Shown here: positions 421 to 64,000 of the stretch, one piece after another | Layout: every line of letters starts with the position of its first letter | Position numbering within the stretch: position 1 is the stretch's first letter | Assembly (NCBI RefSeq): GCF_021130785.1 | Contig: NW_025777533.1 | Coordinates: 29,591-93,590 of the forward strand | Length of the DNA: 64,000 nt | Direction: 5' to 3' | Source: Homalodisca vitripennis | Lineage: Eukaryota; Arthropoda; Insecta; Hemiptera; Cicadellidae | Notes under the pieces: model-generated | Seen by the model: the letters and a program-made list of their open reading frames with translations, nothing else | What the model was told of the DNA's origin: nothing | Databases searched by the model: none | Program-made: the position numbers and the translations under genes

Positions 421-1681
421 TACGAGGGTGCTATTTATATTTGTGGCCTAAGAATGAAAACACAAGCATTTAAAGACAAAATCTATTTTATTGTTTTTCT
501 AAATATTCTGCATGAAGATCAATACACTTGACCATGCGTTGGAACCAATTTTCAAAGCACTTTTTCCACTCCGATTTAGGTACTTCTAAAACATGGGTTT
601 TGAATACAGAAACTGCTTCTTCAGGTGTAGAAAACCGTTGTCCACGTAGTTTTTTCTTGATGTTCAGAAACAAAAGAAGTCATTAGGTGCCAAATCAGGG
701 CTTGTAAAAACTCCATTGTTTCAGCCGATCGGTGGCAGCTCGCATTGTCGTGATGCAGAATGATGCGTCTTTTCTTGGACTTTTCCCGAAGTATCTCAAA
801 GACTTCTGGCAAACAAATAGTGGTGTACCATTCCGAATTAACCGTCTTACGTTGCTCTAATGCCACAGTCGCCACATGAACGGTTATGCCGAAGAAACAG
901 ACAACCATTTGCTTTGATGTGCTTCTTCCATGAACAACTTTGGTTGGATTTGGCTCTTCTTGAAAGACCCATACGGTAGATTGCTGTTTTGTTTCAGGAT
1001 CATATGAGTATATCCATGATTCGTCACCTGTGCAGATATTATAAACTGCTTTTGATGTACCTTGAGCGAATTTCTGCAACATTTTCTTGCACCAATCAAC
1101 ACGAGCATCCTTTTGCGCGTTTGTCAGGTTATGCGGTATCCAACGTGAACAAACCTTTTTCACATGCAAATGTTCATGCAAGATCTTATTGATGCTTGCC
1201 ATACTAATGCCTAAAGAAGCCTCAATCTCACAATATGTTACATGACGATCATGTTTTATCAGGTCATGCACAGCATCGACGTTTTCTGGCACAACAACCG
1301 TTGTTGGACGACCTTCACGGGATTCGTCCTTGAGTGATTGATTGTCGGCCACGATTGAATTCGTTATACCAGTTTTTAATGGTGCTGTAAGAAGGTGCTT
1401 CATTACCATATAAGGAAATAAGTTCATCTAAGCACTGTTGTCGTGTCAGGCCACGTCGAAAGTTATGAAAAATTATTCCACGAAAATGTTCACGAATTAA
1501 TTCCATTTTCTCCTAAGATCACTTTTTCAACGTGCTATCACTAACACTAACAACAATAAAATGACAAAATGTTTTCGTTGAGGTTATGTTTAACAATGTG
1601 AAGGTTGCACTGGAAACGTCAGCTGGTGCCTAGCAGCAATCAGTGTTGCCAAGGCCAGAAATATAAATAGCAGCCCTCGTA
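421..1681 (-). mobile_element. mariner element with terminal inverted repeats and TA target duplication
   Basis: Both ends match: TACGAGGGTGCTATTTATAT at 421 and, on the other strand, TACGAGGGCTGCTATTTATA at 1681, about 30 bp of similar terminal repeat. TA flanks each side as expected for Tc1/mariner insertion. Length 1.26 kb is standard. The insertion lies inside an RT coding region. The ends and protein resemble the mellifera-type branch, which is an impression, not an alignment. Confidence 0.92.
488..1506 (-). pseudogene. mariner transposase, inactivated
   Basis: ATG at 1506 begins MELIREHFRGIIFHNFRRGL, the N-terminal helix-turn-helix. The first frame runs to about 1320, shifts, and continues as DESREGRPTTVVVPENVDAV..., with the linker RWIPHNLT and catalytic TGDESW and HHDNASCH blocks. 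After EFLQ a small deletion removes roughly 11 residues, including the usual LMxHPPY, and shifts the frame; SPDLAPND, which carries the third catalytic Asp, follows in another frame with a stop two codons after. The tail (NIKKKLRGQRFSTPEEAV...HAEYLEKQ) ends at 488. The D-34-D spacing is therefore lost. A transposase by family; this copy should be dead. Confidence 0.9.
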
Positions 1682-1740
1682 TATCGGGGCATCAAGTTAT
1701 TCAATGCATTACCTAATGACGTGAAAGGGTTACCTGATCT
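1682..1740 (+). pseudogene. CR1/Jockey-like reverse transcriptase, end fragment (right half)
   Basis: YRGIKLFNALPNDVKGLPDLVK follows directly from the SF(V) codon before the mariner. 'G-K-LFNALP' is the usual ending block of CR1/Jockey-type proteins. It is the continuation of the fragment at 1-420. Confidence 0.7.
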
Positions 1741-2260
1741 AGTCAAGGGTTACACACCTGATACTTTTAATGCCGACAAAACAGGTCATTTTTACCAGTG
1801 TCTTCGTGACAAAACTTTAACTTTTGTTGGTGACACTTTGATGGCTACGAAGATAAGAATAGTAAACAAAGAGTTACATTGCTGCCGGAACAAATCAAAC
1901 TGGCATCATGAAGCTTATACCATAGATGATAGGAAAATTGAAAAATTCAAGGTGTTCCATAAAGGTTCAAAGTTTTCCAATGGACTACACTTCAAACAAA
2001 AAGTCTTGAATGAATTCAGGTGATTTTGAGAAATGGTTAATGGATTTGGACAGAAAAACAAAGAAAAAACTCGTGTTTATTGACAATGCTACTGCCTACA
2101 GTAACATCTCAGAAATGAAAAAAGTAAAAATCGAGTTCTTACCTCGAAACTACAGCTATTAGATTAAGGAATAATTAAGAATTATTGTATAGTTCATTAC
2201 AGAAAGGAAGTTGTGCACCTCTTCCTTTGTGACCTTTAAGAAAAAGAGCCCTACAAAAAT
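1741..2260 (+). pseudogene. Tigger/pogo-type DDE transposase remnant
   Basis: The frame reads TPDTFNADKTGHFYQCLRDKTL, matching the first catalytic block of Tigger/Jerky transposases (usually NADETG). Later blocks are FSNGLHFKQKVLNEFR, then, after a frame change near 2023, LVFIDNATAYSNI (second catalytic Asp) and VKIEFLPRNYSY. The third Asp block (QPLDQG in the family) is replaced by a stop and IKE. The central part between DKTL and the second block is diverged and shortened. Clearly dead. It abuts the RT fragment with no visible terminal repeat. Confidence 0.72.
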
Positions 2261-2784
2261 AAGCATACTAAGGGTGGTTTTAATGTCACTAGCGCTCTAG
2301 GTACTTTACACAATTGCAACCCTCATACTCTGGATCCTCTGGGATCTGGGGGTATGAATTACTAAATAATAAGCACAAATAATAGGTGTTCCATAAAACT
2401 CAGCAGAGTGCATCTTTTTGAGTTCTTGATTTGCTAGTTTTGGTTCTTGGTTTTGGAATTTTCCTTAAATCTCTTTCTTTCTATTGGCTCTGTAATTACT
2501 CTTCTTTTGTTTTTGTTGGAGAGTCTTTCCATTACCAACCACCTATGGACCCCGGACAACTGGCAGTCGTAAGGAGTTTCATGGACTAAAATTCTTCATA
2601 TATTGTCAGTTACCTTACAACATTACGTACTACCCACCCACCCTTTTGTTAATTAATTAGAATATTGTTTGTATTTAATTCATTGTATGACAATTCTCAC
2701 TGTTTTCATGTTTCACATTTTTGTCGATTTTTACCTTCCACTTTTATACATCCTCTTCCCCTTTTGATTCATTATCAATCCATT
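2261..2784. other. Unassigned intergenic sequence
   Basis: AT-rich sequence between the Tigger and hAT relics. I see no coding signal or repeat structure. Confidence 0.4.
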
Positions 2785-3380
2785 TTTTTTTTCCGAGCAA
2801 CAAAGGTTTTCTTCGAGCTTTCATCATTGCAAAATCATTAATGACGTTTTTATAATCAAGTGCCAGTGTAATATAATTTTTGGTGCAAAACAACATCAAA
2901 CTGTTGAGTTTTTCAATTTCCATTGTAGATCTTGTATAAGACTTAACTCTTTTAAGGGCAGAAAAGCCCCCTTCTCCTATTCAATTTGTGGCAGGAAGTG
3001 TAAGATAAATTCTTAGTGCAGCTTCTAAATTTGGGAAGGACTTTCCAAATTGTTTTTCTTGATGTAGGTATAGATTCCTCTTGTTGTCATTATTTTTGTT
3101 CCACTTCCATATAAATTTTGAATTGTTGACATTCTTGCACAAGATATTCTTCATCAATGTCTTTTAAGTAGGTTTGAGCCAAATTTTTCACCTCATCTGT
3201 TGTTACATTTTGTGGTTCTTTCTCTTGGAGATTGCTGAAAATTTGAAATGTTTTGAGAGCTTCGTAACAATTTCTTATTTTGTGCAACTGAATTACAAGA
3301 TTGTCAATGATCGGTAAGAACACTCCAGTACTTTTGATAATTATCCCACCAGATTTAATCTCAGTATCCCACTTCACTTG
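2785..3380 (-). pseudogene. hAT-type transposase remnant (C-terminal half with dimerisation region)
   Basis: From 3377 the frame reads MKWDTEIKSGGIIIKSTGVF...LPIIDNLVIQLHKI..., ending DEEYLVQECQQFKIYM at 3090, similar to ZMYM-like hAT proteins. Downstream, frames contain FPNLEAALRIYLTLPATN, a stop, then IGEGGFSALKRVKSYTRS and DFAMMK, which is the conserved hAT dimerisation region. In-frame stops and frame changes show it is dead. No terminal repeats identified. Confidence 0.72.
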
Positions 3381-6229: not shown

Positions 6230-6970
6230 TTCTTCTTGGCGACCACTGCTGTCTTGGTGGGATTGACACTTAAGCCCATCCCATAACATCATTTTCCCAT
6301 CATTTTCAGAGCTGCATTTGTCACTTCCGTGACTGTTGTGTTAAACTTGCCACTCATAAGAATTCAAATGTAATCTGCATAACCATGTGGGAAAAAAGTG
6401 ACTACTGTTCAAAGACACAACTAGGATCCACAGAAGGGTAGAAAGGACACCACCCTGAAGACAGCCACTTGTAGTCCTTGCACTGATACCCTCTCTCATA
6501 AGAGTGGTAGTAACTACCTTATCTGTAAGTAAGGCCCGTATATAGTCACATATCTGCTCATTAATACCATGTCTCGAGATTGCATTGACAATTACCTAAC
6601 AACGTGTGTTGTCCAAAGTTTCTTTAATATCCAGAAAGACGCCTATGGCTACTTATTTTGCTGTTAATGCATCCATTTGATGCAAAACTGACTCGCAAGA
6701 TCCTCATGGAGTAAGCATGCTGATTTGGATGAAGAGGCTCTCCTAAAGAGATCCCTCCCAAACAAACGTAGTAATCATCTTCTCCATGGCTTTGAAAAGG
6801 AAGGAGAGGAGACATTTAGGACAAGCTGATCTAGCTTAGACCTCCCCTGCTTCAGTACAAACACCACCCTGGATGCTCTCAGATATAGGAACATACCTGA
6901 GAGCCACAGAGAACAGCCTGTACAACCAGGAAGGAGAAGATCCAACCCCTGCTTCAAGCAAACTTGTCTA
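6230..6970 (-). pseudogene. Degenerate non-LTR reverse transcriptase fragment (R1/I-like)
   Basis: Scattered minus-strand blocks in shifting frames fit an RT: RVVFVLKQGRSKLDQ (like KVVFIPKPGK), SPSFSKPWRR/KAMEKMI, GEPLHPNQHAYS, ESVLHQMDALTAK, then AIGVFLDIKETLDNT and a QGGVLSTLLWILVV block followed by HGYADYI. These correspond in order to RT motifs 1-5, with CPQGGVLSPLLW and GYADD as the usual forms. Many stops and frame changes. Sequence 7000-8100 on the same strand may be its decayed upstream part (for example LYLPYDDQ near 7550), but I cannot show that. Confidence 0.65.
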
Positions 6971-7365: not shown

Positions 7366-9402
<2,037 letters not shown>

Positions 9403-42400: not shown

Positions 42401-45400
42401 TAAACTGAATCTTGCTAATTCAACATTTCAAAATACCAATGTTGAATATAGAAAAGTCTCAGCAATAACTGAGAATACGCCCAATCTACAAGACCAATCA
42501 CTAAAAGAAAATGAAGTGAAAAGCCAAAACTTCCAATGAAGCATTGAAAGTTAGTAAACTTGATGCTGAAGGTGAAATACAATCATTGCAAGTGGAAAAA
42601 GAAAACCCCATAATGCTAAATAAAGAGATTTGAAAACATATAACTTCTAGAGATCACCATTTCTACGTTCAAACTAAAGAGATCGTAGTGCCAACTTCCA
42701 TTCTGATGACAGCCTCTAGGCGCAGCTACTTACATGCAAAGCAGATATGGGAAAAGTAAACACACACCACCCATCCAACCTATTACAGGACACAGGTAAT
42801 TGTAACGTAGTTACCACTGAACCTCAGATTCACCGAAGCCTGAATGAACCGTTGTTCTAAAACATGTATCATCCAATGATGACATAGGTGGAGCCAGTCA
42901 CACCTCTTTTGAAAAAATGTGTCCGCCCGCATCTTTTACCATAGGACCTCAGTATGAAACATCATCCAATAATGACATAGAAGGAGCCAGTCGAACATCC
43001 TTTAATAATAAACTGAACAACTGCTCAAAGATTCCTCCAATAAATGAGCAAGGAAAAAAGCTAAAGAAGAGTGAATTTTGGAGCACACACTACAAAAAAA
43101 TCAATACTAAACCAGGATCATACTCAATTGCCAGCACACTATGTAAAAAAAAAAAGAAAACTAAAAACTCCTGGCCCAAATAAAAATCTCCATCAGGTCA
43201 CTATCACAAAAAATCTCAGAATACTTCCACCAAAACACACGGGGTTTACCAAGAAAAAGCTAGAAAGGCTAGACCACTTACTTAGTACCCTAAAACCCAT
43301 CACCATCATTTTGACAGAACACAGCTTAAACTCTAACAACTTAGCACTAAAGAAAATTGATGGCTACACCCTGGTAGCTAGAGAAGACAATCGACTGGGA
43401 GGAGTTGCAATTTATATAGAATCATAATCAGACTTAAATGCAGATCAAGTTAATGTATCTGACTACTGTGTGGAATTGTTGTGTGAAGCTGCATTGGGAA
43501 GATTTAGCATGAAGAATAATTCTTTATTCGTGCTTGGTATCTATCGACCACCTGGTAGACCAATAAAACAAGCCATTGAAAATAATGTCTAATATATCAA
43601 CTTTGTGCAAGCTGAATCAAAATCCTAAGTGATAGAGTGATGTTAACATCAATAGCCTAGATCTAAATTCTGACAATGCATGTTTTGAAGAAGAACTACT
43701 CTTCTAAGGTATCAGAAGACTCCCTTTACCAGCACCTCGAATAACCAATACTTCTAAGACCTCCATAAATTCAAATTCAAAAGTTTGCATATGTAAAAAT
43801 ATCCCTGATCTAGCTGGGGAATATTGGTACCATGTGCTTAATGCCCGTAATGGTGAAGAAGCTTAAACAATTTTGAGCTGTTACTCTTGTGTGCAGGAAT
43901 TGTTCTAGGAGTCACGGGTTCAATTCCCGTGCCTTACATTAGGGATTTTTGCAGTCGTGTATACTTATGAGAGTCACTTGTCTGTAGTAAAGATGGCGGG
44001 AGAGCCCACCTTAAATTGGCGATAGTTGGTTTCGTTAGAAGTGTATTCTTGTTTAAGAATACCAGACCCAAAACACACAGTTTTCATGTTTTGTCTTTCC
44101 TATTAAAAAAACCATTTGTTTGTGTTATTTTATATTTTGGAAATTATTTACAACTAAGTAACTATAATAATAGCTTTTAAGAGTTATAATCCCACTTAAA
44201 CCATATTTAGCGCTTCAAGAAAAATTACCAGCAATTAGAGGATTAAATATCATTACAATGTTGCACTGCAAATCATGCCGGATTCTATCAGCTAATTATA
44301 GGCCTTTATGTTACGTTAAAATTCAACCATGGAAATCAAATAAATTTTAGAATTAGAACAAGAACCAAATACTTGTTGTCATTCAAAAATGTGTTCAATA
44401 AATGTTTTGTAAGTGAGGTTCCAACTTTCCAGCGATTTCAACATTGAGTTTAGCTCCAGTTTACCTTCCTCTTATTGCATTGTCTGGAATCTGACACTGT
44501 CTCAGACTTGACTCATTGATCTATAGTCATATTCGTCTGAAGAGATCCAAAAATGTCTGTGACAAGAAGCTCAAAGCGAACCCATACATCGTTTTGACAT
44601 CAAAGATACGTAGACTACAAATTCACCTAGTACATTATCGTATTTTGTTGTTTTAGGATTTTGGAGGTTTATCTTTTCTATTTTAGAGTGTCAGCCATTT
44701 AAGATCATTTTCCTGAATACAGAAAAAATACAAATTTTTCAGGTAATTTTACAAGGAATTTTAACCATTTAAAGTAGGAATTTCATTCGTTATAAAACTA
44801 GACCCAAAGTAAATTACTAAAGTTAAAATTAATTTTTACAGCGTGTATTTATGTAACTATGACTTTAGGGAAATCACTTGTTTTAAAATAATTGATGACT
44901 TTTGGAAAATTAAATGTTTCTGAGTAAACATGAGCAACATATTGCTTAATAGAATAAAATCCTTTATGAGTAATAAAACATGTCACTCCTTCTAGCTGTT
45001 TAAATCATACATACTGTAAAAATGTCACATAGATCATTATCTGTAGCCATTTTTATATTGATCTGGTTACAAGGTATCCCCAAGTACCAGTTAAAATACC
45101 AATAATTTCCTCATGGAAAGATCAAGAAATTATATTAAATTTTTTTCCTGTCCTTGGGAAAAACTAAAAGGGCTGTGATTCATATTTTATAAAATATTTA
45201 TTAAGGTAACACCTATTGCACCATCTTAACAAAACAGGGAAGTAACTTAAAAACTGGAAAAGTAATTCCAACACAGTGGTTTTAAGTATTTAACCCTTTT
45301 AAGGCCAATGACCAATTGAGTTGCACTAGTCTCAAAGGCCAGCTCCTGATTTTGCTTAGGTACCTTGAAGTCCAGGCTATTTTGGTTCCTTTTTGCACAG

Positions 45401-55896: not shown

Positions 55897-55917
55897 TATA
55901 TATATATATATATATAG
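55833..55917. repeat. (TA)n microsatellite at left edge of Penelope array
   Basis: About 40 TA units with one TACTATA interruption near 55895. The truncated Penelope copy begins directly at its right end. Confidence 0.95.
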
Positions 55918-55924
55918 TATTCCA

Positions 55925-56729
55925 AAAAAGTTTATCTATACGAGCCAAGAAGCTATGCAGCAATGATATAGACTTCCTAAATTACATTGAAAAATTAAGC
56001 AACACTTTTAAACATTTAAATTACCCAGACAAAATTTTAAAAAATCAAATAAACAAACCAAAACATCCAGCAAGCTTCAATTATAAAACACAACCAAAGT
56101 TTATTACACAGTTTTTTCCTGGACTACACAAAATTAACAGTATTATGAAAATTGCCCATAATGTCCTACTTTCCTCTCCAGATACCCAAACTTTTATGGC
56201 TAAAGCACCTAGAGTAATATTTCGAAAACCTCCAAATTTGAAAAACAAACTTGTCCAACCTAAACTACCTAAATTACACCAACCCGTTACTAATGGATGT
56301 GAACCGTGCAACAAACCACGTTGCGGTTCTTGCAAAATTATGAAAAACTCTAGGGAATTCAAAAGTAACGTAACAGGTTTAACTTATCCCATCATTGGCA
56401 AAGTAAACTGTGACTCTAAGAATGTAATTTACCAAATTAATTGTAAATTTTGTGACAAACAGTACATTGGACAAACATCTAACCACCTTAGAGTCAGAAT
56501 AACAGGGCACAGATTTGATATTTTCCATAAAGACAAGGAGAAGCCATTGGCCAAACATGCTGCTGAGCACAAAAAAGACAAAATTGAAGAATGTTATAAC
56601 CTTAAAGGAATTAATAAGGTCTTCCCTTGTCATGAAGAAAATTTAAATAGATTAAAATTAAAAAATCTGGAACAAGCACATCAATTACTTTTAAAATCAA
56701 AATACCCAAATGGTCTAAATTTAAGATAA
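55925..56729 (+). CDS. Penelope copy A: RT end fused to GIY-YIG endonuclease (5'-truncated)
   Basis: The frame passes without a stop from the RT end (RAKKLCSNDIDFLNYIEKL, KHLNYPDKILKNQINKPKHP) through FITQFFPGLHKINSI into the endonuclease, so in this family RT and endonuclease form one protein. Endonuclease features: CEPCNKPRCGSCKIM zinc-binding cysteines, NVIYQINCKFCDKQYIGQTS (GIY-YIG variant), LRVRITGHRFDI and FPCHEENLNRLKLKNLEQAH, ending NGLNLR at 56729. Only the truncated RT prevents it from being complete. Confidence 0.85.
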
Positions 56730-56871
56730 TTTTAACTTTTCCAAATTTCCATCTGTGCCATTAATGATATATCAGCTGGGTTTTTGAATGTTTTAGTTGC
56801 GTATTTAAATTTTTGGTTATTTTATTTTATTTGTTGTGTTTCTTGTTTCTTGTTTTCTTCATTTATATTAT

Positions 56872-56917
56872 GCTTCCTGAAGATGTGGGTATTAAATCCC
56901 ACGAAATATATAGAAGC
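56872..56917 (+). ncRNA. Hammerhead ribozyme motif, Penelope copy A
   Basis: 46 nt. Stem I GCUUC (56872-56876) with GAAGC (56913-56917); core CUGAAGA (fits CUGANGA); an extra U; stem II GUGGG with CCCAC around loop UAUUAAAU; GAA; stem III from self-complementary AUAUAU; A at position 17. Predicted cleavage after 56912. Hammerheads are known from Penelope-like elements. The extra U before stem II and the loop-less stem III are unusual. Activity is not shown by sequence alone. Confidence 0.78.
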
Positions 56918-57077
56918 CTTGTAATCTTCGTTTTTCATTTCAATAAGTGAAATAATATAACAGCCACTTGGTGATCAACCATCGTCAACACGAAGCCTTT
57001 TGGTAAAAAGTCTCTCTTCTACACTTCTTATACACTAGTGTTTATTTTCCGTTAAAGCTCTCAATTTGTTCATCAAA

Positions 57078-59195
57078 ATGAATACGCATACTAGCAAAAA
57101 GCATTTAATGAAACAGTTCAAATATCATTCATTAAAAATTGTTAAAATTAACTGTCATGTTATGTTCATTGGCACTTTATTGTCTTTCGGCCTAACCCCT
57201 CCAGGTCTCAGTCCTAAATTTCCTTACTCTGGTCTACCACCTGCTATGCACGAAGCTGTTAAAATTTTAGCTATCAAGACAAGTTTTGAACTTTCTAAAT
57301 TAGTATTGAAAGCATATAAATCCATGGCAGAAAACCATGGTAAAGAATTAAGAATCATATATGATTGTCTATTATCCCAATATGATAGTGATTCTCTTCA
57401 TAATGACATTAATAATATAGTACGAAAGCTACAGAGTTTTATGACTAAAAAAACTGAAAAACTTTCAAATAAGTTGTTACAAATTTGTAGAAAAACTATA
57501 AATAATGGTGAGGAAATACCCACTAAATGGAAATGCTTCAGTGACACCGATTCTAATAATGTTATACCACCCTTATATGATGGAACAAATTCTTGTGTTG
57601 AACAATCACCGAACACAAATGTAGACCCCATTATTGAAAAAGTAGCCAAACAAGATACAAATAATGCCAGTGATCTTCTTGAATCGTGCATTGAAAATAT
57701 ATCTGACTATCAACCTAACAAAGATGAACTTCAAGTTCTTTCAAAAGGTCTCACGTTTTGTCCTACTCCAAAATTTAATCAAATAAGCCTAATAAACGAC
57801 GCTCTTACCTTTTCCCGGGAATTAAGACTAAAATTTTTCTTCAGCAAACAACAAAACATTTGTAATGATGAAATTCTTCCTTGCTTGAATAGGTTCAAAC
57901 AAAAATCGGATTGGGAACCTCCCCCTCTCCCTGCAGATCACCCGATTGAACAGTTTATTAACATTGTAGTGTCTAATTTGTCAAATCCGGAATTTCAAAA
58001 CTCTTTAAATAAGAAGAATAACTTATCCCAAAATGAAATTCGAGCCATTAAATCACTGAAAAACAATCACAATATAATCATTCTCCCGGCTGATAAAGGA
58101 AGTAAGATTGTTATTTTAAATTTAAAAGATTACATTGAAGAAGCTACCACACAGTTATCTGATACAAATACATACAAGCCTCTGGAGGAAGATCCTACAG
58201 ATAAATTTAACGAAGTTATCAAAAAATACCTCAAAGATTATGGTCCCAATCAAGGTTTGTCTTCAAAGAATATTGAATTATTAAGTCCAAAATGGCCCCG
58301 AACACCAATATTTTATACACTCCCAAAAATCCACAAACCCATTCGTCCTCCACCTGGTAGACCTATTGTTTCTAGCTATGGGAGTCCAACAGAAAGAATT
58401 TCAGCTTATATTGATGATCAACTGCAACCTTTTGTAAAATCATTACCATCCTATATAAAAAATTCTACTGACTTCATTGAAAAAATTACTACTGTTAAAC
58501 AACCAATTCCTGAAAATTCAATTCTAGTAACAGTAGATGTAAATTCTCTATACACAAACATACCACATAAAGAGGGTCTGCAGGCTGTAGAGAGTGTTCT
58601 AGACGCTAGAAAAAATAATGTTATTCCATCGACCAACTTTTTGATTAATTTAATGCAATTCGTCCTTACAATGAACAATTTTAAATTCAACGACAAAAAT
58701 TATCTACAAATTTCGGGTACAGCTATGGGCACCAGGATGGCTCCCTCATATGCTAACCTATTCATGGGCGAATTCGAGAAGAAATTTCTAGCCTCACAAA
58801 ATCTTCAACCATTAAAATGGGTACGTTTCATCGATGATATATTTTTCATATGGCATCATGGATTGGAATCTTTGCAAGAATTTTTGAAGAATCTCCAAGA
58901 GTTCTCTCCTTTGAAGTTTACATGGAACTATTCTGATGTTATAATAACTTTTTTAGATTTAGACATTTTCTTAGAATCAGGCTACATCAAAACAAAATTG
59001 CATGTTAAAACAACAAACACAATGAACTATCTAAATTTTTCAAGTTGCCATCCAATATATATAAAAAAGTCTATTCCAAAAAGTTTATCTATACGAGCCA
59101 AGAAGCTATGCAGCAATGATATAGACTTCCTAAATTACATTGAAAAATTAAGCAACACTTTTAAACATTTAAATTACCCAGACACAAAATTTTAA
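57078..59195 (+). CDS. Penelope copy B reverse transcriptase (ends at a frameshift before the endonuclease)
   Basis: ATG at 57078 (MNTHTSKKHLMKQFKYHSL); a TTG just upstream in frame is not needed as start. 705 codons. Order: N-terminal region with PPGLSPKFPYSGLPPAMHEA, then RT core: IKSLKNNHNIIILPADKGSK, FYTLPKIHKPIRPPPGRPIV, VTVDVNSLYTNIPH (motif A), ISGTAMGTRMAPSYANLFMG (motif B), WVRFIDDIFFIWHH (motif C, catalytic Asp pair), FLDLDIF (motif D). A two-base insertion (CACA for CA) in the NYPD codon region near 59184 ends the frame at 59195 and separates it from the endonuclease at 59300. Confidence 0.92.
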   Translation: MNTHTSKKHLMKQFKYHSLKIVKINCHVMFIGTLLSFGLTPPGLSPKFPYSGLPPAMHEAVKILAIKTSFELSKLVLKAYKSMAENHGKELRIIYDCLLSQYDSDSLHNDINNIVRKLQSFMTKKTEKLSNKLLQICRKTINNGEEIPTKWKCFSDTDSNNVIPPLYDGTNSCVEQSPNTNVDPIIEKVAKQDTNNASDLLESCIENISDYQPNKDELQVLSKGLTFCPTPKFNQISLINDALTFSRELRLKFFFSKQQNICNDEILPCLNRFKQKSDWEPPPLPADHPIEQFINIVVSNLSNPEFQNSLNKKNNLSQNEIRAIKSLKNNHNIIILPADKGSKIVILNLKDYIEEATTQLSDTNTYKPLEEDPTDKFNEVIKKYLKDYGPNQGLSSKNIELLSPKWPRTPIFYTLPKIHKPIRPPPGRPIVSSYGSPTERISAYIDDQLQPFVKSLPSYIKNSTDFIEKITTVKQPIPENSILVTVDVNSLYTNIPHKEGLQAVESVLDARKNNVIPSTNFLINLMQFVLTMNNFKFNDKNYLQISGTAMGTRMAPSYANLFMGEFEKKFLASQNLQPLKWVRFIDDIFFIWHHGLESLQEFLKNLQEFSPLKFTWNYSDVIITFLDLDIFLESGYIKTKLHVKTTNTMNYLNFSSCHPIYIKKSIPKSLSIRAKKLCSNDIDFLNYIEKLSNTFKHLNYPDTKF

Positions 59196-59299
59196 AAAAT
59201 CAAATAAACAAACCAAAACATCCAGCAAGCTTCAATTATAAAACACAACCAAAGTTTATTACACAGTTTTTTCCTGGACTACACAAAATTAACAGTATT

Positions 59300-59884
59300 A
59301 TGAAAATTGCCCATAATGTCCTACTTTCCTCTCCAGATACCCAAACTTTTATGGCTAAAGCACCTAGAGTAATATTTCGAAAACCTCCAAATTTGAAAAA
59401 CAAACTTGTCCAACCTAAACTACCTAAATTACACCAACCCGTTACTAATGGATGTGAACCGTGCAACAAACCACGTTGCGGTTCTTGCAAAATTATGAAA
59501 AACTCTAGGGAATTCAAAAGTAACGTAACAGGTTTAACTTATCCCATCATTGGCAAAGTAAACTGTGACTCTAAGAATGTAATTTACCAAATTAATTGTA
59601 AATTTTGTGACAAACAGTACATTGGACAAACATCTAACCACCTTAGAGTCAGAATAACAGGGCACAGATTTGATATTTTCCATAAAGACAAGGAGAAGCC
59701 ATTGGCCAAACATGCTGCTGAGCACAAAAAAGACAAAATTGAAGAATGTTATAACCTTAAAGGAATTAATAAGGTCTTCCCTTGTCATGAAGAAAATTTA
59801 AATAGATTAAAATTAAAAAATCTGGAACAAGCACATCAATTACTTTTAAAATCAAAATACCCAAATGGTCTAAATTTAAGATAA
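59300..59884 (+). CDS. Penelope copy B GIY-YIG endonuclease
   Basis: 194 codons from the internal MKIAHNV methionine to NGLNLR; the sequence is the same as in copy A. The true N-terminus is the RT frame, lost through the upstream two-base insertion. Cys block CEPCNKPRCGSC, YIGQTSNHLRVRITGHR and a conserved Glu in HEENLNRLK are present, so the nuclease domain itself is intact. Confidence 0.9.
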   Translation: MKIAHNVLLSSPDTQTFMAKAPRVIFRKPPNLKNKLVQPKLPKLHQPVTNGCEPCNKPRCGSCKIMKNSREFKSNVTGLTYPIIGKVNCDSKNVIYQINCKFCDKQYIGQTSNHLRVRITGHRFDIFHKDKEKPLAKHAAEHKKDKIEECYNLKGINKVFPCHEENLNRLKLKNLEQAHQLLLKSKYPNGLNLR

Positions 59885-60026
59885 TTTTAACTTTTCCAAA
59901 TTTCCATCTGTGCCATTAATGATATATCAGCTGGGTTTTTGAATGTTTTAGTTGCGTATTTAAATTTTTGGTTATTTTATTTTATTTGTTGTGTTTCTTG
60001 TTTCTTGTTTTCTTCATTTATATTAT

Positions 60027-60072
60027 GCTTCCTGAAGATGTGGGTATTAAATCCCACGAAATATATAGAAGC
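60027..60072 (+). ncRNA. Hammerhead ribozyme motif, Penelope copy B
   Basis: Same 46 nt as copy A: GCUUC/GAAGC stem I, CUGAAGA, GUGGG/CCCAC stem II, GAA, AUAUAU, A. Predicted cleavage after 60067. Distance to the copy A site is 3155 nt, equal to one unit, so double cleavage of a read-through transcript would release one monomer. Confidence 0.78.
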
Positions 60073-60232
60073 CTTGTAATCTTCGTTTTTCATTTCAATA
60101 AGTGAAATAATATAACAGCCACTTGGTGATCAACCATCGTCAACACGAAGCCTTTTGGTAAAAAGTCTCTCTTCTACACTTCTTATACACTAGTGTTTAT
60201 TTTCCGTTAAAGCTCTCAATTTGTTCATCAAA

Positions 60233-62095
60233 ATGAATACGCATACTAGCAAAAAGCATTTAATGAAACAGTTCAAATATCATTCATTAAAAATTGTTAA
60301 AATTAACTGTCATGTTATGTTCATTGGCACTTTATTGTCTTTCGGCCTAACCCCTCCAGGTCTCAGTCCTAAATTTCCTTACTCTGGTCTACCACCTGCT
60401 ATGCACGAAGCTGTTAAAATTTTAGCTATCAAGACAAGTTTTGAACTTTCTAAATTAGTATTGAAAGCATATAAATCCATGGCAGAAAACCATGGTAAAG
60501 AATTAAGAATCATATATGATTGTCTATTATCCCAATATGATAGTGATTCTCTTCATAATGACATTAATAATATAGTACGAAAGCTACAGAGTTTTATGAC
60601 TAAAAAAACTGAAAAACTTTCAAATAAGTTGTTACAAATTTGTAGAAAAACTATAAATAATGGTGAGGAAATACCCACTAAATGGAAATGCTTCAGTGAC
60701 ACCGATTCTAATAATGTTATACCACCCTTATATGATGGAACAAATTCTTGTGTTGAACAATCACCGAACACAAATGTAGACCCCATTATTGAAAAAGTAG
60801 CCAAACAAGATACAAATAATGCCAGTGATCTTCTTGAATCGTGCATTGAAAATATATCTGACTATCAACCTAACAAAGATGAACTTCAAGTTCTTTCAAA
60901 AGGTCTCACGTTTTGTCCTACTCCAAAATTTAATCAAATAAGCCTAATAAACGACGCTCTTACCTTTTCCCGGGAATTAAGACTAAAATTTTTCTTCAGC
61001 AAACAACAAAACATTTGTAATGATGAAATTCTTCCTTGCTTGAATAGGTTCAAACAAAAATCGGATTGGGAACCTCCCCCTCTCCCTGCAGATCACCCGA
61101 TTGAACAGTTTATTAACATTGTAGTGTCTAATTTGTCAAATCCGGAATTTCAAAACTCTTTAAATAAGAAGAATAACTTATCCCAAAATGAAATTCGAGC
61201 CATTAAATCACTGAAAAACAATCACAATATAATCATTCTCCCGGCTGATAAAGGAAGTAAGATTGTTATTTTAAATTTAAAAGATTACATTGAAGAAGCT
61301 ACCACACAGTTATCTGATACAAATACATACAAGCCTCTGGAGGAAGATCCTACAGATAAATTTAACGAAGTTATCAAAAAATACCTCAAAGATTATGGTC
61401 CCAATCAAGGTTTGTCTTCAAAGAATATTGAATTATTAAGTCCAAAATGGCCCCGAACACCAATATTTTATACACTCCCAAAAATCCACAAACCCATTCG
61501 TCCTCCACCTGGTAGACCTATTGTTTCTAGCTATGGGAGTCCAACAGAAAGAATTTCAGCTTATATTGATGATCAACTGCAACCTTTTGTAAAATCATTA
61601 CCATCCTATATAAAAAATTCTACTGACTTCATTGAAAAAAAAATTACTACTGTTAAACAACCAATTCCTGAAAATTCAATTCTAGTAACAGTAGATGTAA
61701 ATTCTCTATACACAAACATACCACATAAAGAGGGTCTGCAGGCTGTAGAGAGTGTTCTAGACGCTAGAAAAAATAATGTTATTCCATCGACCAACTTTTT
61801 GATTAATTTAATGCAATTCGTCCTTACAATGAACAATTTTAAATTCAACGACAAAAATTATCTACAAATTTCGGGTACAGCTATGGGCACCAGGATGGCT
61901 CCCTCATATGCTAACCTATTCATGGGCGAATTCGAGAAGAAATTTCTAGCCTCACAAAATCTTCAACCATTAAAATGGGTACGTTTCATCGATGATATAT
62001 TTTTCATATGGCATCATGGATTGGAATCTTTGCAAGAATTTTTGAAGAATCTCCAAGAGTTTCTCTCCTTTGAAGTTTACATGGAACTATTCTGA
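60233..62095 (+). CDS. Penelope copy C reverse transcriptase (frameshifted)
   Basis: Same protein as copy B up to FLKNLQEF. Two indels against copy B: AAA added at about 61640 (an extra Lys, in frame, KKITTV) and one T added at about 62060 (GAGTTTCTC for GAGTTCTC), which shifts the frame and stops it at 62095. The right frame resumes at about 62070 (KFTWNYSDVIITFLDLD) to the A-run near 62350, where an extra A shifts it again (ends 62399). Motif C FIDDIFFIW is present before the break. Confidence 0.9.
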   Translation: MNTHTSKKHLMKQFKYHSLKIVKINCHVMFIGTLLSFGLTPPGLSPKFPYSGLPPAMHEAVKILAIKTSFELSKLVLKAYKSMAENHGKELRIIYDCLLSQYDSDSLHNDINNIVRKLQSFMTKKTEKLSNKLLQICRKTINNGEEIPTKWKCFSDTDSNNVIPPLYDGTNSCVEQSPNTNVDPIIEKVAKQDTNNASDLLESCIENISDYQPNKDELQVLSKGLTFCPTPKFNQISLINDALTFSRELRLKFFFSKQQNICNDEILPCLNRFKQKSDWEPPPLPADHPIEQFINIVVSNLSNPEFQNSLNKKNNLSQNEIRAIKSLKNNHNIIILPADKGSKIVILNLKDYIEEATTQLSDTNTYKPLEEDPTDKFNEVIKKYLKDYGPNQGLSSKNIELLSPKWPRTPIFYTLPKIHKPIRPPPGRPIVSSYGSPTERISAYIDDQLQPFVKSLPSYIKNSTDFIEKKITTVKQPIPENSILVTVDVNSLYTNIPHKEGLQAVESVLDARKNNVIPSTNFLINLMQFVLTMNNFKFNDKNYLQISGTAMGTRMAPSYANLFMGEFEKKFLASQNLQPLKWVRFIDDIFFIWHHGLESLQEFLKNLQEFLSFEVYMELF

Positions 62096-62399
62096 TGTTA
62101 TAATAACTTTTTTAGATTTAGACATTTTCTTAGAATCAGGCTACATCAAAACAAAATTGCATGTTAAAACAACAAACACAATGAACTATCTAAATTTTTC
62201 AAGTTGCCATCCAATATATATAAAAAAGTCTATTCCAAAAAGTTTATCTATACGAGCCAAGAAGCTATGCAGCAATGATATAGACTTCCTAAATTACATT
62301 GAAAAATTAAGCAACACTTTTAAACATTTAAATTACCCAGACAAAATTTTAAAAAAATCAAATAAACAAACCAAAACATCCAGCAAGCTTCAATTATAA
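62070..62399 (+). pseudogene. Penelope copy C: displaced RT C-terminus
   Basis: Continuation of the copy C RT in the next frame: TWNYSDVIITFLDLDIFLES through SLSIRAKKLCSNDIDFLNYI to NYPDKILKKSNKQTK, where an added A (AAAAAAA) misframes the linker to the endonuclease. Confidence 0.85.
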
Positions 62400-62460
62400 A
62401 ACACAACCAAAGTTTATTACACAGTTTTTTCCTGGACTACTACACAAAATTAACAGTATT

Positions 62461-63045
62461 ATGAAAATTGCCCATAATGTCCTACTTTCCTCTCCAGATA
62501 CCCAAACTTTTATGGCTAAAGCACCTAGAGTAATATTTCGAAAACCTCCAAATTTTAAAAACAAACTTGTCCAACCTAAACTACCTAAATTACACCAACC
62601 CGTTACTAATGGATGTGAACCGTGCAACAAACCACGTTGCGGTTCTTGCAAAATTATGAAAAACTCTAGGGAATTCAAAAGTAACGTAACAGGTTTAACT
62701 TATCCCATCATTGGCAAAGTAAACTGTGACTCTAAGAATGTAATTTACCAAATTAATTGTAAATTTTGTGACAAACAGTACATTGGACAAACATCTAACC
62801 ACCTTAGAGTCAGAATAACAGGGCACAGATTTGATATTTTCCATAAAGACAAGGAGAAGCCATTGGCCAAACATGCTGCTGAGCACAAAAAAGACAAAAT
62901 TGAAGAATGTTATAACCTTAAAGGAATTAATAAGGTCTTCCCTTGTCATGAAGAAAATTTAAATAGATTAAAATTTAAAAATCTGGAACAAGCACATCAA
63001 TTACTTTTAAAATCAAAATACCCAAATGGTCTAAATTTAAGATAA
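62461..63045 (+). CDS. Penelope copy C GIY-YIG endonuclease
   Basis: 194 codons. Two substitutions relative to copies A and B (PNFKNK for PNLKNK, LKFKNLEQ for LKLKNLEQ). Upstream, a TAC triplet is duplicated (GGACTACTACAC, in frame). Catalytic and zinc residues retained. Confidence 0.9.
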   Translation: MKIAHNVLLSSPDTQTFMAKAPRVIFRKPPNFKNKLVQPKLPKLHQPVTNGCEPCNKPRCGSCKIMKNSREFKSNVTGLTYPIIGKVNCDSKNVIYQINCKFCDKQYIGQTSNHLRVRITGHRFDIFHKDKEKPLAKHAAEHKKDKIEECYNLKGINKVFPCHEENLNRLKFKNLEQAHQLLLKSKYPNGLNLR

Positions 63046-63187
63046 TTTTAACTTTTCCAAATTTCCATCTGTGCCATTAATGATATATCAGCTGGGTTTT
63101 TGAATGTTTTAGTTGCGTATTTAAATTTTTGGTTATTTTATTTTATTTGTTGTGTTTCTTGTTTCTTGTTTTCTTCATTTATATTAT

Positions 63188-63233
63188 GCTTCCTGAAGAT
63201 GTGGGTATTAAATCCCACGAAATATATAGAAGC
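63188..63233 (+). ncRNA. Hammerhead ribozyme motif, Penelope copy C
   Basis: Identical 46 nt to copies A and B; predicted cleavage after 63228. It lies 35 nt before the element runs into (TA)n, so the motif sits close to the element's 3' end. Confidence 0.78.
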
Positions 63234-63266
63234 CTTGTAATCTTCGTTTTTCATTTCAATAAGTGA

Positions 63267-63267
<1 letters not shown>

Positions 63268-63328
<61 letters not shown>
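63268..63328. repeat. (TA)n microsatellite at right edge of Penelope array
   Basis: About 30 TA units directly continuing GAAATAATATA, where copies A and B instead continue into ACAGCCACTTGG. Confidence 0.95.
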
Positions 63329-63332
<4 letters not shown>

Positions 63333-63360
63333 AATAGAAGAAAAAAGACTTCAAATAAAT

Positions 63361-63398
63361 CCTTTAATATTTCGACTTTATTGTCGTTTTCAAAAAGG
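63361..63398 (-). other. Penelope-like terminal hairpin, degenerate hammerhead-like
   Basis: Minus strand: CCTTTTT GAAAA CGAC AATAAA GTCG AAATATT AAAGG. A CGAC/GTCG stem followed by GAAA and an outer CCTTT/AAAGG pairing imitates the hammerhead layout, but the CUGANGA core is degraded (UUGAAAA). Probably the 3' end of a different, oppositely oriented Penelope-like element. Confidence 0.4.
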
Positions 63399-64000
63399 TA
63401 CAAAAAGTGAATATAATGTAAGAATTAAAAGTAAATCTTTGAAATTTTTATAATCAGCTGAAATTTTCTATTCTGATTTATAGTGTAATTTATAAACTCC
63501 TTGGTATATTATACTAAAAATTGATTTCTATTAAAATTAAAATTTAGATTAATAATATAAAAAGGCGTTCTAAACAGCATAAAATTAAATTAAATATTAA
63601 CAATTTTGTAGTTTTGTAATTGCATAATTATAAAAAATTAATAAATTTAAATATATATAATTCTTAGTCTAGAAAAGAATAAGTGGTTGAAGCATATTTG
63701 TATCCATTTCCCCTGTTTATTTTTCCTGAAACCACGGTAAAGATAATATATATATTAAGTCAAAGGAACCAATCACGACGTGTAAAAAGGAACGAGTAGG
63801 TACTTTACGTGCAAACATTCATAGCTTTGTTCATAATATGGGTTTTATAATAACATTTAAATAGTACTCTTCCTATGTATTAGATAGTTTTAATTGGTCA
63901 CTGGTAAATTATGTAATAAAAATTAGATAGTAACTTTGCCTTTCCAATCTGCACAATACTACTGATCAAGCACTGTTTTAATGTTAGTTAAAATTTGATT
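63399..64000. other. Unassigned AT-rich sequence to window end
   Basis: Nothing recognised; may belong to the minus-strand Penelope-like element suggested at 63361-63398. Confidence 0.35.

Follow-up and report, generated by a model that had tools for sequence, protein, structure and literature searches.

The 64,000-nt stretch of the Homalodisca vitripennis genome (Hemiptera, Cicadellidae) analysed here, hereafter the window (assembly GCF_021130785.1, contig NW_025777533.1, positions 29,591 to 93,590 of the forward strand), contains a tandem array of a Penelope-like element (PLE), each unit of which carries a hammerhead ribozyme motif. Judged from its sequence, the motif is a well-conserved predicted hammerhead of the published kind in a PLE family with more than 100 copies. 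Observed were the motif, its conservation by paired changes in other sequence classes and a DNA end shortly past the predicted cut (42 nt in this array). As an explanation of the whole, we consider it likely that the element possesses one minimal type I hammerhead per unit in its pseudo-long terminal repeat (pseudo-LTR), which would act mainly as a landmark or fold at the 3′ end, with cleavage as an optional processing step. The more informative regularity is the short distance from motif to DNA end.

Three identical 46-mers are located on the plus strand of the window (56872–56917, 60027–60072 and 63188–63233), and a check of the sequence bore out both the start positions and the identity reported in an initial annotation of this DNA. 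Their spacing of 3155 and 3161 nt was likewise correctly equated with the repeat unit, as the same period was obtained in a repeat search of the window. The predicted cuts lie between 56912 and 56913, between 60067 and 60068 and between 63228 and 63229. In the first motif, stem I is formed by GCUUC/GAAGC (56872–56876/56913–56917), followed by the core CUGAAGA (56877–56883), an extra U between A9 and stem II (56884), stem II GUGGG/CCCAC with a loop of 8 nt (56885–56889/56898–56902), GAA (56903–56905), AUAUAU (56906–56911) and A (56912). The type I core (C3 U4 G5 A6 N7 G8 A9, G12 A13 A14, A15.1-U16.1 and H17) is complete at 3/3 places. A strict descriptor (CUGANGA, 0–1 nt, 5-bp stem II, GAAA, U-H, 5-bp stem I) matched these three places only, considering both strands, which confirms the core and stems I and II as originally drawn. 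It found no match in 300 dinucleotide shuffles of the window, and a version with 4-bp stems matched once in 300 window shuffles. Because the three motifs are repeats of one sequence, they count as a single independent occurrence.

When folded in isolation, the 46-mer adopts nearly the drawn structure (− 12.3 kcal/mol, z − 3.77); in its lowest-energy fold, G12 is additionally paired to the extra U (probability 0.75). Stem III consists of the short palindrome AUAUAU only. A nested double hammerhead of two motifs was calculated at − 26.2 kcal/mol, compared to − 23.0 kcal/mol for two monomers, and the free dimer minimum of − 28.0 kcal/mol is a different structure. The earlier proposal of a self-complementary stem III and possible action as a dimer agrees with PLE hammerheads as presented in the accessible parts of the literature.

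The array is composed of one 5′-truncated unit and two full units, all on the plus strand, and is bounded by TA tracts. The truncated unit (55902–56961) corresponds to unit positions 2094–3155 (99.2% in a blastn search with the unit), the first full unit (56962–60116; 3155 nt) served as reference, and the second full unit (60117–63275), which matches the first at 99.6%, ends in a TA tract. The two full units differ by 4 substitutions and 10 gap columns. The reverse transcriptase and endonuclease domains of the first full unit are found in two open reading frames (ORFs). The reverse transcriptase ORF (57066–59195, first ATG at 57078) matched RVT_1 with an E value of 1.2e-10, with 57081–59192 as query, starting one codon past this ATG. 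The GIY-YIG-like endonuclease ORF (59300–59884) reached 17.9 bits with PF01541, for which the cut-off is 22.6. In the second full unit, the reverse transcriptase region (60221–62399; RVT_1 E 2e-11) is itself split into two ORFs (60221–62095 and 62070–62399), while the endonuclease ORF (62461–63045) scored 18.0 bits, below the same cut-off. The endonuclease ORF of the truncated unit is located at 56145–56729. The hammerhead motif is positioned between the endonuclease ORF and the ORF of the next unit, once per unit, i.e. in the pseudo-LTR.

A protein search yielded 1963 relatives among 7990 scored candidates, the best being 54% identical (120 of the 1963 were listed). Among the matches listed, several relatives carry a precomputed GIY-YIG domain, and two proteins of Macrosteles quadrilineatus share 55 and 50% identity with roughly two thirds of the query. 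Based on the RVT_1 match, the relatives, the sub-threshold GIY-YIG domain, the tandem copies and the TA-rich sites, the unit is a predicted PLE. Tandem or partial-tandem copies, 5′ truncation and AT-rich insertion sites were all found as PLE traits. The identification of a hammerhead within a Penelope element holds.

In the 2.30-Gb assembly, 107 exact copies of the 46-mer were counted (57 forward, 50 reverse), compared to none for the control. Twenty stretches around such places were sampled for copy structure and contain solo 5′-truncated copies as well as arrays with up to five motifs. The PLE copies in these stretches terminate at unit position 3147–3155. Among 26 tails fitting the tail pattern, 16 reach a (TA)6+ tract, 9 enter the next unit and 1 reaches a TG repeat.

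Related motifs were obtained from a stem-free pattern (CTGANGA and CGAAATATATAG only), which gave 223 matches in the genome and none in the control. Those among the matches listed are mostly copies and decayed copies of the window PLE family, and three places represent two other classes, CTGAAGA-C-GGC..GCC and CTGAAGA-C-GGT..ACC (loci L038, L039 and L040), with stems I and II both paired. Two matches to the same pattern, L041 and C4:4996696, are without such stems and were dropped as chance. A third motif type with a UUGAAAA core and CCUUU/AAAGG was found at PLE ends in L017, in L022 and on the minus strand of the window. The latter hammerhead-like motif (63361–63398) belongs to another PLE, of which the region 63289–63659 is 90% similar to the PLE end in L017. 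Oriented opposite to the array, this 3′ end with its U3-A8 core shares a TA tract with it. A local scan of L009–L028 and the window (262 kb) added L018, L020, L025, L026 and L027, with 0.05–0.15 matches per class in shuffles of the scanned sequence, and L047 has a motif of the L026 type. Two candidates on minus strands were discarded as chance, one at 863 in L022 without an inserted nucleotide and one at 9059 in the window with an inserted G, for which stem I was not required.

The extra U had been regarded as a peculiarity of this instance. This view was abandoned, because all 13 retained motifs (window plus and minus strand, L017, L018, L020, L022, L025, L026, L027, L038, L039, L040 and L047) have exactly one nucleotide at this place (U or C, except for A in L025), which makes it a common trait. 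Retention of the U for the formation of a start codon was considered and dropped, as other motifs have C or A at this position. Unlike in the standard type I layout, stem II does not follow A9 directly. This does not exclude membership in the hammerhead class, because at most one or two nucleotides inserted between the core and adjacent stems occur in known hammerhead alignments, according to the portion of PMC10085705 that was available.

Covariation was evaluated for C3-G8 and the first three pairs of stem II in an alignment of seven motifs (window plus and minus strand, L017, L022, L038, L039 and L040). Scan hits were excluded from this evidence, since they had been chosen for pairing; the window minus-strand, L017 and L022 motifs were first spotted by eye and are closely related, hence some selection remains in the set. 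The positions are paired in 28/28 cells (shuffled mean 74.9%, 0/500 shuffles as high). Eight cells are changed on both sides (shuffled mean 2.2, 0/500 as high), compared to none in the slid controls. A covariation score of 0.881 was obtained, with a shuffled mean of 0.285 (0/500 as high). Among the diverged motifs, C3-G8 is exchanged for U3-A8 as a pair, which section 8 of PMC3088659, as far as its text was available, gives as known natural hammerhead variation. Stem I pairs vary between motif classes in a comparison made without a statistical count. Taken together, the alignment indicates that the diverged motifs keep a predicted hammerhead fold via paired changes.

In the last window copy, the first TA tract begins 42 nt past the predicted cut. 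Nine motifs, representing six sequence classes, have their first tract 35–52 nt past the cut, corresponding to 9 of the 12 motifs with a readable flank; the background for this distance is 0.8% of positions drawn at random from the fetched sequence. The L022 motif was left out of this count, as it lies inside a tandem pair and offers no end to measure. The motifs L038–L040 were provisionally assigned to PLE-like ends through the resemblance in end distance only. Since the DNA end lies beyond the cut, the copied RNA would have been uncut at that motif, or circular.

For the 5′ side, a motif-independent search for tandem joints gave 25 joints in 13 loci and none in the control. With L025 included, the first unit was read in 14 arrays, with 5′ ends determined by blastn. 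The 5′ ends of solo copies were excluded from the cut test, because those copies had been picked for containing the whole motif. The 14 array ends are at unit positions 1260, 1657, 1765, 1978, 2094, 2567, 2776, 2826, 2885, 2961, 2998, 3011, 3033 and 3118, and 0/14 fall within 10 nt of the cut (unit 3106/3107). With a 3′ terminus past the cut and none of the 14 5′ ends at it, self-cleavage of array transcripts into monomers with a defined 5′ end, as proposed in the initial annotation, is not supported as the source of copies.

All 14 ends lie at unit position 1260 or beyond; the first 1250 nt of the unit contain no such end, and none of these arrays therefore starts with a nearly complete unit. 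At 6618–6941 in L028, the 5′ end of a copy has two extra tandem copies of unit positions 1404–1564, without involvement of the hammerhead. At L025 4494–4584, L026 2372–2453 and, in reverse, L047 3080–3162, copies of the window PLE start at the TA tracts of other families, directly after 3′ ends that bear a hammerhead, which looks as if old PLE ends were preferred targets.

The same data allow other routes to the copies to be weighed. A model in which multi-unit transcripts cleave themselves into linear monomers that share a defined 5′ end and are then copied into the genome fits the spacing of the motifs by exactly one unit, as well as one array in L029 (1011–1736; G000:C6:120418900-120423000). 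Here, a 123-bp sequence derived from unit positions 3106–3155, 1–14 and 1123–1182 is repeated 5.9 times, and its joint from 1182 to 3106 is 1 nt from the predicted cut. The joint fits some use of cut RNA and speaks against copying from RNA left uncut. A single joint falls within 1 nt by chance in about 3 of 3155 cases, but some twenty breakpoints were inspected, so this observation is only suggestive. We nevertheless judge copying of linear monomers to be quite improbable, as none of the readable array 5′ ends lies near the cut, and a DNA end 42–47 nt past the cut would leave a linear monomer with only a short stub. In addition, two units of the C3 array carry the core change CTTAAGA, which is absent from the exact motif further along the same array (C3:44681080). 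The latter finding also disagrees with self-cut monomers closed into circles, where reverse transcription round the circle would produce head-to-tail arrays with a random 5′ end. A fixed 3′ end with variable 5′ ends is in line with such circles, as is the frequent finding that the closest relatives of a unit are in its own array, shown by the 4 differences between the window units, compared to at least 13 to the other full units examined, and by the seven changes common to all four L022/L023 units. However, 3 changes occur in only three of these four units, and for the first L025 unit, L026 is a closer match (0.8%) than the neighbouring unit (2.9%), which makes the circular route unlikely in our view. 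Unequal exchange could be the source of these subset patterns.

Several observations weigh against a conserved hammerhead that acts at the 3′ end. Stem I forms with a probability of about 0.11 in 56840–56960, of 0.05–0.06 in 56872–57100 and of 0.00 in three longer stretches with upstream sequence (201, 301 and 451 nt), in which a U-rich stretch pairs with the 3′ strand of stem I. The Rfam hammerhead models gave no match at E ≤ 1 on the whole window, none at E ≤ 10 on 56840–56960 and, at relaxed thresholds, none in ten loci including nine places of the other motifs (without L025 and L047). Two of the five covariation measures do not exceed the shuffles, namely pairs with a change on both sides (3 vs. 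1.7, 70/500 as high) and further pair types (5 vs. 4.4, 212/500 as high), whereas the other three do. The motifs in L018, L020 and L027 lack a TA tract within 150 nt as well as a shown link to a PLE, and the landmark role itself is deduced from the spacing between motif and end. The absence of a hit to any hammerhead model had been named beforehand as a result that would refute the hammerhead. This result was indeed obtained, but it is not diagnostic, because co-varying motifs of this kind likewise went undetected in the search; the models appear to be limited with regard to minimal forms.

The missing Rfam matches on the window and on 56840–56960 and the weak stem I in longer context could also be read as signs of an inactive relic retained only as a passenger of young copies, as could the copies with a changed core (CTTAAGA twice, CTGGAGA once). 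Several diverged classes keep the core and stems via paired changes, unlike a relic, and we thus give this explanation little weight. Chance resemblance without RNA function would be compatible with the fact that the three instances are repeats of one sequence and thus one occurrence. It is highly improbable in view of the 0/300 shuffles that match the strict descriptor, the covariation in seven motifs and the placement of the motif just ahead of the DNA end.

According to the favoured explanation of a hammerhead tied to the 3′ end, the array would be transcribed as multi-unit RNA, in which AUAUAU may allow two motifs to join as an active double hammerhead, with an activity that is probably weak or assisted by a protein of the element. 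The RNA copied into new sites would mostly be uncut at the downstream motif, because the DNA copy ends beyond that motif. The motif would then be mainly a landmark or fold of the 3′ end, and cleavage an optional processing step. More tentatively, the PLE hammerheads of this genome might form a subclass with one nucleotide after A9 and a near-fixed distance of 35–52 nt from the cut to the start of copying, and their conserved role would be to position the reverse transcriptase on the working 3′ end of the RNA. In that case, cleavage would be a secondary, regulated reaction, with a cut end occasionally left in the DNA, as may be the case in L029; we regard this extension as possible, but doubtful.

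Minimal type I hammerheads of Penelope-like elements were reportedly described by Cervera and de la Pena in 2014, and minimal PLE hammerheads are said to cleave as dimers, according to the title of a study by Lunse, Weinberg and Breaker from 2017. PLE hammerheads, their minimal forms and dimer action are covered by the available parts of PMC6155905, PMC7761336, PMC7229834, PMC11722881, PMC6466107 and PMC6431247 between them, and the accessible text of the review PMC7761336 calls their role in PLEs unknown. Like the window motif, the minimal PLE hammerheads described in the excerpts of PMC7761336 and PMC6155905 are located in the pseudo-LTR of tandem units and have a minimal stem III with a palindrome capable of dimer formation. 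The extra nucleotide after A9 and the 35–52 nt to the DNA end were measured here, the published PLE hammerheads being represented by partial texts of citing papers only. A literature search with CTGAAGATG and Penelope surfaced only unrelated work, and a search combining Penelope-like elements, hammerhead, template switching and tandem returned nothing on these points, judged by titles and abstracts. One scan of viral contigs found no relative.

The PLE ‘PAc’ of Anolis carolinensis, as characterised in the available part of PMC11167929, resembles the window element in its tandem units, in a hammerhead near the ORF start and in reverse transcription that starts internally, beyond the hammerhead and its cut. 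Its hammerhead cleaves only with protein, mutation of the hammerhead does not prevent insertion, and RNA-seq revealed no ends at the cut. The two differ in that the AUG of the ‘PAc’ hammerhead starts the ORF, whereas the window AUG at 56883 stops after 13 codons and the ORF has its ATG at 57078. This window AUG is formed by A9-U-G of the hammerhead (56883–56924), in frame with the main ORF and 195 nt upstream of its ATG. In an RNA cut between 56912 and 56913, the first AUG would be that of the ORF itself. A hypothetical spliced start from GT at 56889 to AG at 57038, recognised by eye in the sequence, would connect the AUG of the hammerhead with the ORF.

Animal retrozymes and newt satellite hammerheads, in the sections of PMC7229834 that were accessible, are also type I, one tandem unit apart and weak in stem III, with dimer cleavage in amphibians. 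Retrozymes are non-autonomous and about 170–400 nt in length, whereas the window unit of 3155 nt encodes its own reverse transcriptase and is thus not a retrozyme. In rotifer Terminons, the hammerhead is likewise a 3′-terminal fold just ahead of the sequence that meets the target, according to the portion of PMC6431247 at hand. Terminons end in telomeric repeats, whereas the window PLE terminates at TA tracts and contains a domain resembling an endonuclease.

Elsewhere in the window, an 18-nt match to the end of a tmRNA model was found at 43913–43930, perhaps a tRNA-derived fragment; a tRNA gene was not found there.

Overall, the initial interpretation stands for a hammerhead in a PLE and for a self-complementary stem III that may act in a dimer, but not for a special bulged U, and monomer release as the source of copies is not supported. 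The Rfam hammerhead models miss this minimal form. With 107 exact copies, diverged motif classes and clear insertion ends, the question of the role of the hammerhead becomes testable by counting ends. The counts obtained here favour a role tied to the 3′ end and argue against linear monomers released by cutting as the main template.

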